A stretch of DNA of 41,352 nt from Nitrospira sp. (lineage in GTDB: Bacteria > Nitrospirota > Nitrospiria > Nitrospirales > Nitrospiraceae). The first letter of the stretch is position 1; every line of letters starts with the position of its first letter. Positions 29,715-32,749 of this stretch are shown here, piece by piece. The DNA lies in assembly GCA_016873395.1 (NCBI GenBank), contig VGXG01000021.1:1-41352 (forward strand), read 5' to 3'. Both the position numbers and the translations under genes were made by a program. The notes under the pieces were generated by a model. It saw only the letters and a list, made by a program, of their open reading frames with translations, did not search any database and was not told where the DNA came from.

Positions 29715-31733
29715 CTAACGACCGGCTCCTGTTGGTCCGTGGCGGGCCGGTCTTCCGGCGCCTTCTGCACGCTCCGGCCTTGTGTCATGCACGTCCTCCA
29801 TCAACGTCCGGAGAACTTCAGCCACAGACCAGGCTTGAGCCATACAGCCGCGCGGCCGATATGGCGGCTCCGCGTCGAAGATTTCCGACACTTGGCCGAG
29901 ACAGGCCTCGCGCAGGTGCTGCTCGATGCCGGCTAAGAACCCCCGCGCCTCGTGCTTCGCTGCCTCGGTCCCGCCATGTACCTTGACCCAGGCCGTGATG
30001 AACGAACCCAGAAGGAAGGGCCAAACCGTGCCCTGATGATACGCGCCGTCACGGCCAACAACGCCTCCCTCATACCGAGGCCGGTACTGGGGGTCGTTCG
30101 GCGCTAGCGTTCGCAACCCCACCGGCGTGAGTAACCGCTCCTCCACCACCTGGACGACACGTTCCGCCTGTTGTTCCTCGAGCAGTTGGCCGGGGAACGA
30201 GACCGCATAGATTTGATTCGGCCGCAGGCTTGGGTCGTTGCCGCCTTCACCGTCCACAACGTCGTACAGGTAGCCGCCGTCCGCAAACCAGAAACGGGCG
30301 CGGAAGGACTTGATCGCGCTGATCCGATCGTCTTCGCAGCGTTTCGCATAGGGCTTCTCGCCGAACCGCTCTGCCAGCGTCTCCCCGACCGACAGGGCCC
30401 GCACCCAGAGAGCTTGAATCTCGACCGGCTTGCCCCGGCGCGGAGTCACCACCCAGTCCCCGACCTTGGCATCCATCCAGGTGAGCTGGACGCCGGGTGC
30501 GCCTCCGGTCACCAATCCGTCGTCGTCCACCCGAATCCCGAAGCGGGTCCCCTCCCGGTAACCATCCAGAATCGCGCGGACGGCGGGCCAGGCCACACGC
30601 CGGACCGTGTCCAGGTCGCCCGTATAGTCCAGATACAGCCCGACCGCATGGATGAACCACAGCGACGCGTCGATCGTGTTGTACTCCGGTGTCTCGCCGG
30701 CGTCGGGGAAGCGGTTGGGAATCATCCCCTGCGACACGTGCGGTGCGAAGGCCTCAATGACCTGACGGGCCACGTCGAACCGGCCGGTGACCAGGCACAG
30801 ACCGGGCAGAGAGATGAACGTATCCCGTCCCCAATCGGTGAACCAGGGATACCCGGCGATGACGGTCTTCTGCGTGCCTCGGCCCGAGAGGTATGTTTCG
30901 GTCGCCTGCCACAGGGCACGAACCAGCGGATCGTCACCCGGCCTGCGCTCAGCCGCCAACTGACGGCGTTGCCGTTCGTCTCTGACCAGAGCTTCTATCT
31001 CGACCGCCTCAATCGGCTCCGTCGTAAACACCAGATAGGCGGCCTGATCAGAGGACAGGGTCATGGCGAACACGCCCGGCGACCACCAATCCTCCTCGAA
31101 GTCCAGGCCCCGCTCCTGTTCGATCGGGAACTGGACCCGACAGTACCAGTCCGGCGCATGCCGGTATATCCCGCGATAGAACGTCCTGATCTCCGGCAGC
31201 CCTCCGTACGGACGCCAGGCCACGTGGCTGTTGAGGCGCGCCCCCGCCTGCAGCGAACCGTTCTCGTGGTGCGTGGCATGATAGTCGCGCCCCGACAGCA
31301 TGGGGCGGACCGTGAGCTGCACATGCCGACCGGCGGCAGCCAGTTGCCAGCGCACCACCACCAGGTCCCGCCCCTGCGGACAGAAAATTTCTCGTATGAC
31401 GTGGGTGCCGCCCACGTCATAGGTCCAGGTCGGCCACGGATCGGACGAAAAGCTGATGCAGCGCCGGTGGCCGTCCGGATGAACAACCCCGGGATAGCAA
31501 TTCGCAGAGAGCGGAATCGATTGTCCGTCGATCTCGACCTGCTCTTCCAGGTGATTGACCAGGACGACGCGGTCCACCGGGGGGTTGCGTGCGATCAATA
31601 ACAACGCATGGTAGCGCCGCGTGTTGGGCCCGGCCACCGTGCCGGACGAAAATCCGCCGCGCCCGTTGGTCTCAAGCCATTCGAGGGCGAGCGCGTGATC
31701 GAGGTTCTGACAATCCTTGGGTTCGAGGTTCAT
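29715..31733 (-). CDS. glycogen debranching enzyme (amylo-alpha-1,6-glucosidase, GH133-like)
   Basis: About 672 residues. The N-terminal beta domain begins LEWLETNGRGGFSSGT-like (glycogen debranching N domain, WLxTNGxGGxAS pattern) and continues with NTRRYHALLL. The C-terminal (alpha/alpha)6 domain has WFTDWGRDTFISLPGL, IDASLWFIHAVG, YHQGTVWPFLLG. It hydrolyses alpha-1,6 branch linkages of glycogen. The ATG at 31733 places the GRGG motif correctly; the longer frame to 31943 reads into the hairpin cluster. A Pro/Arg-rich short tail ends the protein. Confidence 0.92.
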   Translation of the reverse strand: MNLEPKDCQNLDHALALEWLETNGRGGFSSGTVAGPNTRRYHALLLIARNPPVDRVVLVNHLEEQVEIDGQSIPLSANCYPGVVHPDGHRRCISFSSDPWPTWTYDVGGTHVIREIFCPQGRDLVVVRWQLAAAGRHVQLTVRPMLSGRDYHATHHENGSLQAGARLNSHVAWRPYGGLPEIRTFYRGIYRHAPDWYCRVQFPIEQERGLDFEEDWWSPGVFAMTLSSDQAAYLVFTTEPIEAVEIEALVRDERQRRQLAAERRPGDDPLVRALWQATETYLSGRGTQKTVIAGYPWFTDWGRDTFISLPGLCLVTGRFDVARQVIEAFAPHVSQGMIPNRFPDAGETPEYNTIDASLWFIHAVGLYLDYTGDLDTVRRVAWPAVRAILDGYREGTRFGIRVDDDGLVTGGAPGVQLTWMDAKVGDWVVTPRRGKPVEIQALWVRALSVGETLAERFGEKPYAKRCEDDRISAIKSFRARFWFADGGYLYDVVDGEGGNDPSLRPNQIYAVSFPGQLLEEQQAERVVQVVEERLLTPVGLRTLAPNDPQYRPRYEGGVVGRDGAYHQGTVWPFLLGSFITAWVKVHGGTEAAKHEARGFLAGIEQHLREACLGQVSEIFDAEPPYRPRGCMAQAWSVAEVLRTLMEDVHDTRPERAEGAGRPARHGPTGAGR

Positions 31734-31837
31734 TATTTGACATTCTACCGCGACGATCCGCTTCAGGAAACAAAGATCGCTCTCAGGCGGTAACGGCGCC
31801 GGCTTATTGGATGGCGACGCGCAGCCGAAGTGGAGCC

Positions 31838-31998
31838 CCACGGCTTTACAGCCGTGGTTCCTTTGTGATCTTCGGCGGAACCCGCCGAAGCGGGTGTCCT
31901 CCTTCGCCAAGGCTTCGGAGGACACCCGCCCGCATTCCTCCACGGCGTGAGCCTACTCCGCCGGAGTAGCCTCGGCTACGAAGGCTGGACAGCCGTGG
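31838..31998. repeat. cluster of four perfect hairpins
   Basis: CCACGGCT-TTAC-AGCCGTGG (31838-31857); TTCGGCGG-AAC-CCGCCGAA (31871-31889); GCGGGTGTCCTCC (31890-31902) with GGAGGACACCCGC (31917-31929), 13 bp perfect; CTACTCCG-C-CGGAGTAG (31953-31969). The last is enclosed by CCACGGC (31940-31946) and GCCGTGG (31992-31998). The phrase ACAGCCGTGG occurs twice. The cluster fills the 287-bp space between the oxidoreductase stop and debranching-enzyme start; no gene is seen there. Confidence 0.7.
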
Positions 31999-32020
31999 CT
32001 TCCTGCGTAGGCGGGTGGAA

Positions 32021-32749
32021 TTACGGTAGGATGATCGCCTGTTCCGGATATCCGAGATCTTTGAGCGTCCGCTCGATGGCATCCATCATTGGAGGAGGAC
32101 CGCACAGGAACACCACCGTGTCAGGAGCCGGCGGCGGCAGGTGTGCACGCAGAATGTCGGCGGTTACTCGCCCGACTCCCTGGGTCCATCCGGGGGGCTC
32201 CTGTTCCAGCACGTGGTAACAGTGAAACGTCGGGTGCTCACGGGCATACCGATCAAACTCCTGGCGCAGGATGATGTCCGCCTCCGTCTTGTTGGCAAAG
32301 ATCAAGAACTGCTCGACCGGCAGCCGTGTGACCAGAATCCAGCGTATGATGGAGATCATCGGCGTGATGCCGGTGCCGGCGGCGACATAGCCGACCTTCG
32401 TCGCCATCCCATCCTCCCAGTGCCCTCCTGTGCTGGGACCGTTCATCTGTACCACATCCCCGACTTGCCGCTCGTGGAGGTACTTGGAGATGGTGCCGGT
32501 CGGATACCGTTTTACGGTGAGCTCGAAATAGCCCAGCGTCCCGGGCAGCGAAGACGGCGTGTAGGGCCGCTTGACGGCTTTGCCGCTCAGCGTCGCGTGC
32601 ACGTAGAGATGATCACCGGGAAACATGTCGAGCGTCGCATCGTCCGGCAGGCCGAAGCGGAAGGTTTTGGTGTCGTGCGTATCCTCCTGGATCGCCGTGA
32701 TCTGGTAGGGAGCCGGCGTTTTGGTCTTGACGCGGACCACGTCCGTCAT
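32021..32749 (-). CDS. FAD/NAD(P)H oxidoreductase, cytochrome b5 reductase-like
   Basis: A 242-residue ferredoxin-NADP reductase-fold protein. The FAD-binding motif is KRPYTPSS (RxYS/T), phosphate loop segment TGTISKYLHE, nucleotide site VGYVAAGTGITPMISIIR, and C-terminal FLCGPPPMMDAI. It should pass electrons from NAD(P)H to a haem or iron-sulfur partner; no partner gene adjoins. The ATG at 32749 has GGGAGGGG upstream; the frame upstream of it runs through the octad repeat and is not coding. Confidence 0.88.
   Translation of the reverse strand: MTDVVRVKTKTPAPYQITAIQEDTHDTKTFRFGLPDDATLDMFPGDHLYVHATLSGKAVKRPYTPSSLPGTLGYFELTVKRYPTGTISKYLHERQVGDVVQMNGPSTGGHWEDGMATKVGYVAAGTGITPMISIIRWILVTRLPVEQFLIFANKTEADIILRQEFDRYAREHPTFHCYHVLEQEPPGWTQGVGRVTADILRAHLPPPAPDTVVFLCGPPPMMDAIERTLKDLGYPEQAIILP

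Follow-up and report, generated by a model that had tools for sequence, protein, structure and literature searches.

The hairpin cluster described here is most probably part of a non-autonomous single-strand DNA transposon with ends of the IS200/IS605 type, a PATE, which would be moved in trans by a Y1 transposase; we put the probability of this reading at about 0.85. It lies in the window, by which we mean the whole stretch of DNA analysed, i.e. positions 1-41,352 of the forward strand of contig VGXG01000021.1 from Nitrospira sp. (GCA_016873395.1; genome of 2.34 Mb in 97 contigs). The features that carry this reading can all be read from the sequence: sharp ends, seamless empty sites, hairpins, co-variation between guides and targets and, for four of the five empty sites, a target already present in the best homologue read. 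As the testable features given in the available text of the published PATE definition were found in it, the element was assigned to the PATE kind, as a new family.

The four hairpins are located between two minus-strand genes, one of glycogen debranching type, which matched Pfam GDE_N and GDE_C, and one for an FAD/NAD oxidoreductase. The start of the debranching-type gene was placed at 31733 by sequence reading, and the listed ORF start at 31943 would traverse the hairpins. The oxidoreductase gene lies upstream with its stop codon at 32021-32023, and the window copy of the element is 6 bp beyond this stop. All four of the perfect stems described in an earlier note were found: 31838-31845/31850-31857 (8 bp), 31870-31878/31882-31890 (9 bp, given as 8 bp in that note), 31890-31902/31917-31929 (13 bp) and 31953-31960/31962-31969 (8 bp, with a loop of 1 nt), base 31890 being common to the second and third. 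As claimed, the last is nested inside another pair, a 7-bp stem at 31940-31946/31992-31998. The span of 31838-31998 that had been given holds for the hairpins, but the unit itself is larger. Following the IS200/IS605 convention it is read on the minus strand, with the left end at 32014 and the right end at 31830, and its parts are as follows.

31830 to 32014, minus strand: whole PATE-like element, with sharp ends in 97 copies and empty sites at five other copies
32015 to 32019, minus strand: putative left cleavage and target site TCCAC (family consensus TTYAC), role by analogy with IS608
31999 to 32002, minus strand: left guide GAAG, next to the base of the left hairpin on its 5' side; its first base and the target co-vary in 88 of 95 copies
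31940 to 31998, minus strand: left subterminal hairpin with a 7-bp stem and a nested palindromic module that lengthens its loop; absent from the minus-strand minimum-energy fold
31947 to 31991, no strand assigned: left-hairpin loop with the insert module (inner hairpin 31953-31969), reflected in length classes near 46/85 and 147/185
31890 to 31929, no strand assigned: internal hairpin 3 with a 13-bp stem, covarying pairs in 27 copies
31870 to 31890, no strand assigned: internal hairpin 2 with a 9-bp stem, conserved, with no two-sided changes
31858 to 31861, minus strand: right guide GGAA, next to the base of the right hairpin on its 5' side, from sequence reading and guide/target comparison
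31838 to 31857, minus strand: right subterminal hairpin with the minus-strand loop TGTAAA, the same loop as in both hairpins of the IS200-class locus L157
31830 to 31833, minus strand: putative right cleavage site CCAC, the minus-strand 3' end of the element, role by analogy with IS608

The unusual hairpin density noticed earlier was borne out. When non-overlapping hairpins with a stem of at least 8 bp and a loop of at most 15 nt were counted in 161-nt stretches at steps of 20, the region had three (four stems, two of them sharing a base), the highest count in the window. Among 500 dinucleotide shuffles, 469 had no hairpin, 30 had one, a single shuffle had two and none had three. Folded as single-stranded DNA, the region gave z = -5.4 on the plus strand and z = -6.3 on the minus strand, where the outer 7-bp stem is displaced by other pairings in the minimum-energy fold and the other long stems form. 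The region is G+C-rich, as would be expected if the palindromes had arisen by chance or simple composition, but none of the shuffles reached its hairpin count and the minus-strand z-score also speaks against this explanation. It is hardly conceivable and is already refuted by the long near-identical copies elsewhere in the genome.

A BLAST search of the region against its own genome returned 15 places including itself, the longest near-identical one showing 91% identity over 148 bases. The right end occurred 12 times at up to three mismatches, against one match for a control pattern, so that the cluster is not unique, which the earlier note had wanted to see settled by a count of genome copies. 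Nine of these 12 right ends were still exact; in the GTDB set, right ends were gathered by an exact pattern and their invariance there is partly by construction. From 115 right ends, 97 copies were kept; the other 18 had no left end within 420 bp and were excluded. The ends are sharp and the flanks unconserved: in the ten columns preceding 5'-GTGRAG and the eleven following RAA-3', no base is above 38%.

The 97 copies, with end spacing of up to 420 bp, are 44-298 bp long and therefore too short for a transposase. They fall into classes of 44-46 bp (18 copies), 76-101 bp (10), 105-129 bp (10), 142-151 bp (28), 172-191 bp (16), 213-233 bp (8) and 243-298 bp (7). Near-terminal palindromes are present at both ends and terminal inverted repeats are absent; copies of 44-46 bp have just one palindrome. 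Removing everything between the two CCACGGC...GCCGTGG hairpins would leave the 46-bp form, and these short copies look like products of core deletion. The classes differ in steps of about 39 bp, owing to a palindromic module within hairpin loops; in the window copy this module lies in the last hairpin, and copies lacking this insert have a left-hairpin loop of about 6 nt. By a strict joined pattern the module occurred 54 times, 52 of them near element ends, in loci that had been chosen for having the element. The module, CCTACTCCGCC...GGCTACGAAGGC, was also seen with no element ends nearby in L050 (near 1502) and L284 (near 780); in L050 it sits within a hairpin of other sequence, as if hairpin loops generally accept it.

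The stems were compared in 27 of the 28 copies of 142-151 bp, leaving out L010, a short form with a long loop. The named stems were 95.4% paired, and two-sided changes were found in 37 cells compared with 10.3 after shuffling (0/500). RNAalifold favoured pairing of the tail with an internal ACCCGCC over hairpin 2, in columns that hardly vary.

On the minus strand the copies share one layout, in which TTYAC is followed by 16 nt ending in the guide RAAG, the left hairpin and, further on, a second guide, the right hairpin and the end YCAC. Two subfamilies can be told apart, the first with TCAC/GAAG (target TTCAC) and the second with TTAC/AAAG (target TTTAC). The left pair was readable in 95 of the 97 copies: the target base at -3 and the first base of the left guide were C with G in 68 and T with A in 20, with seven exceptions, and so target and guide switch jointly in 88 of 95. 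At the right end, the base at -4 and the second guide base were in matching states in 58 of 65 copies (48 + 10), counted from 70 copies of at least 100 bp after setting aside five that were unreadable. By our reading, the seven exceptions include three short forms that have no right guide (L097, one of L075, and L105) and L103, where the reading fell within an insert. Among the same 70 copies, the right and left types were combined in four ways, in 48, 11, 9 and 1 copies, plus one odd left end, suggesting that the two ends need not switch together. A tree built without the four guide/target columns shows one or two changes of the left pair and two of the right; as Fisher values are calculated from counts of copies and the tree shows few events, these values overstate the co-variation. 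We regard the evidence for guide/target co-variation as good but not overwhelming.

The pairing positions of the presumed guides and cleavage sites were assigned by comparison with IS608, which, in the portions of PMC5934647 available, has C_L TTAC, G_L AAAG, C_R TCAA and G_R GAAT and inserts 3' of TTAC, its target being picked by guide pairing. The second subfamily described here resembles it in having AAAG at the foot of the left hairpin together with TTAC, and the guide/cleavage pairing at the right end appears to be of the same kind. Compared with IS608 as described there, our element lacks tnpA and tnpB, has targets TTCAC or TTTAC, carries four hairpins and ends in YCAC at the right site in place of TCAA. 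The window copy belongs to the first subfamily. Its left target TCCAC mismatches its own guide at -4, and this, together with the left terminal stem missing from the fold, suggests that the copy may be poorly mobile or poorly excised; it is probably a passive insertion.

Empty sites were sought by searching the joined flanks of 10 and of 9 sites in 175 genomes, with two candidates scored per genome, and among the matches listed five sites with junction-spanning homologues were read. At the three sites with a GTGAA end, the closest homologues have GTGAA precisely where the element precedes it, with the empty-site junctions TTGTGT|GTGAATCG (L207), CATTTAG|GTGAATG (L208) and GATTG|GTGAACAAC (L213). 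For the L125 site, 14 homologues were read, of which seven have GTGAA, among them the closest (L207, at 92% identity), and seven lack it; GTGAA was present in two of three for the L116 site, the third having GTAAA, and in both for the L129 site. The L015 site, with a GTAAA end, has GTAAA in the sole homologue read (L275, 72% identity in a gapped alignment), and its count rests on L275, a G004 homologue also among the matches listed having been left out. For the L042 site the homologue L267 (84%) has GCAAA where GTAAA was expected. The expected pentanucleotide is thus found in the best homologue read at four of the five sites, and no target duplication was seen at the best-aligned junctions of the five. 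At the well-aligned sites, then, the target existed before insertion, and nothing was duplicated or lost. With two candidates scored per genome, the matches listed held no junction-spanning homologue for the site in the window itself.

A single-strand route for the transposition can be envisaged from these features. When the minus strand is single-stranded, hairpins would form near both ends, and the guide tetranucleotide at the 5' foot of each hairpin would pair with its cleavage site, the flanking TTYAC on the left and the terminal YCAC on the right. A Y1 HUH transposase acting in trans could then cut 3' of both sites, and the excised single-stranded circle could be inserted 3' of another TTYAC without target duplication. 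The route, the circle and the action in trans are what we infer from the ends.

The earlier note had also offered a structured RNA leader of the debranching-enzyme gene. This is not supported, since copies adjoin different genes in all orientations and no Rfam match was obtained at gathering scores in the window. By simple ORF rules, applied to 92 of the 97 copies (five in loci under 3000 bp were left out), the neighbouring genes were oriented -,- in 26, +,+ in 17, -,+ in 14 and +,- in 12, while 11 copies were inside an ORF and 12 at a contig edge. A leader RNA or terminator of this gene was rejected in view of the dispersed copies, their varied orientations and the empty sites. More generally, a structured RNA or regulatory element (leader, terminator or mRNA stabiliser) could be retained for a host function, and the compensatory changes in the stems and the position of copies mainly between ORFs would agree with it. 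However, recognition of a DNA hairpin explains the stem compensation equally well, and the seamless empty sites, patchy distribution, unconserved flanks, occurrence in every gene orientation and lack of an Rfam match in the window make a retained RNA very improbable.

The distribution is indeed patchy. Among 80 genomes compared, the own genome and 79 relatives, 16 had a match (15 of the 79 relatives); long matches of up to 91% identity were found in other genera, and many of the relatives had none. In a family survey allowing one mismatch, the right end was present in 43 of 175 genomes, own included, at 1 to 56 copies each. An exact scan of 84,980 GTDB species gave 91 stretches, of which 80 were listed by title: 61 from Nitrospirota and 19 from outside, namely Elusimicrobia (6), Deltaproteobacteria (6), Omnitrophota (3), Phycisphaerae (2), Syntrophaceae (1) and Oleimmundimicrobium (1). 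By eye, at least eight distant copies have the four hairpins in the same order (L079, L083, L087, L094, L103, L114, L115 and L130), and five have little beyond the last hairpin and the tail (L064, L066, L082, L107 and L143). As the distant hosts are metagenome-assembled genomes, mis-binning is possible for single cases, although it is unlikely as a general cause because six matches come from three Elusimicrobia genomes of separate projects. Carriage by phages or plasmids was rejected as a vehicle within the searches made, as the exact right-end pattern was not found in viral contigs, the window copy had no matches in phages and the L087 copy had none in plasmids.

The REP-type palindrome cluster suggested in the earlier note was right in part: with 12 right ends in its own genome this is a dispersed, mobile palindrome, but a strict association with RayT was not found. 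The only Y1 gene detected in the own genome, which bears on the suggestion of a nearby RayT-type transposase, is a truncated RAYT that scores 38 bits where the cut-off is 80; it lies on a different contig, and no end of the element is found less than 1.5 kb from it. This gene (G000:C57:5905-6189; L022:1742-2317) is flanked on either side by the phrase AAAAGTAGAATGTCCCC, a repeat that has nothing to do with the hairpin element. From a larger number of Y1 loci detected, 80 were examined, and none has matching ends to both sides of its Y1 gene; several are truncated at contig edges, and two (L159 and L170) represent one gene. In an Omnitrophota locus (L244), a partial copy was seen over 1 kb away from the Y1 gene.

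It is nevertheless possible, if unlikely, that the element is a REP/REPIN-type repeat moved by RAYT (TnpA_REP) and not by an IS200-class TnpA. The plus-strand head at the hairpin foot is GTGG in most copies, agreeing with the REP head GT[AG]G in the available parts of PMC2817692 and PMC6006769, and the element also resembles the REPs and REPINs described there and in PMC3733652 in being a short intergenic palindrome with many copies. The remaining copies, the second subfamily, start with GTGA, which does not favour RAYT. Y1 matches were present in 119 of the 175 family genomes and were commoner in element-bearing ones (37/43 versus 82/132; Fisher p 0.004), but this association may reflect general mobile-element load. 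The genome with 56 copies has 13 Y1 matches and also contains a complete RAYT-like gene that is followed, about 30 nt downstream, by a degenerate 46-bp copy (L196), a finding that keeps this alternative alive. The absence of flanking copies is indecisive since some of the RAYT subclasses described (in the portions consulted of PMC6006769 and PMC3733652) have no REPs at their flanks, or have long TIRs. Against it stand the 80 Y1 loci lacking paired matching ends, the own genome with only a truncated RAYT detected, and the two dissimilar ends, the left with a flanking target, unlike a simple REP as described in those texts. In its ends the element is closer to IS200/IS605-type elements (PATEs) than to REPs. 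A REPtron flanking a RAYT was rejected, being absent from the Y1 loci examined.

Within the preferred reading of a PATE moved in trans, a TnpB/IS605 parent was rejected: TnpB (PF07282) was found in 1 of 18 genomes, and its three loci had no element ends. An IS200-class TnpA is favoured on account of a shared end layout together with similar hairpin loops or right ends. IS200-class loci with this layout were found in element-bearing genomes of the family (L157) and of other groups (L234 and L236), with the hairpin loops TGTAAA/TGTAAG in L157 and L236 and a right end of hairpin-TTCTTCAC in L234. Six of the 43 element-bearing family genomes had no detected Y1 gene; all are drafts in several contigs, three have a completeness of 75% or less, and they include G004 (five right ends, 95% complete) and G031 (six right ends, 92% complete). 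This raises the question of which transposase mobilises the element in such genomes. According to the available text of PMC3119063, strain-specific PATE insertions also occur in a Haloquadratum strain whose IS200 genes are all pseudogenes.

The PATEs of Haloquadratum walsbyi, as set out in the same text, have near-terminal palindromes, IS605-like ends, no terminal inverted repeats and no target duplication, are too short for a transposase, and can lose the core between two palindromes to leave terminal-only copies. Our element shares all of these traits, but differs in the two additional internal hairpins conserved across phyla, in the nested loop modules and in that no IS with the same ends was found at the 80 Y1 and three TnpB loci. 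A bacterial PATE-like element in Halanaerobium, an ends-only IS605 remnant, also has terminal hairpins, but there only one sequence is involved, and its parent IS is present in that genome as well (PMC7290912, consulted in excerpt, as was PMC12306157). Set against the descriptions available to us, three features go beyond published PATEs: the two conserved internal hairpins, the modules in the loops and the occurrence in several groups. The four right-end strings were absent from the literature searched, and the element was unreported in the literature searched by title and abstract start.

More tentatively, and with a good deal of doubt, this could be a trans-mobilised family of Nitrospirota and at least five other groups in which compensatory guide changes reset the target in nature at each end independently, conserved internal hairpins have a role of their own in transposition (e.g. 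by exposing single-stranded DNA) and a second palindromic module can be taken up by the hairpin loops. Since guide and target are matched in each of two subfamilies within one bacterial family, the element offers a natural test of IS200/IS605-type, guide-dependent target choice. A PATE common to several groups of environmental bacteria would also explain a repeat carried by about a quarter of the family genomes (43/175).

The 56 right ends and 13 Y1 matches mentioned above belong to one draft genome (G163, whose contigs match Nitrospira sp. 8_1_Oct_SF_Bin54), an apparent burst. In two other family genomes the same insertion site is occupied (L229 in G191:C169 and L217 in G205:C177), and as the site is common to both, this insertion probably predates their split.
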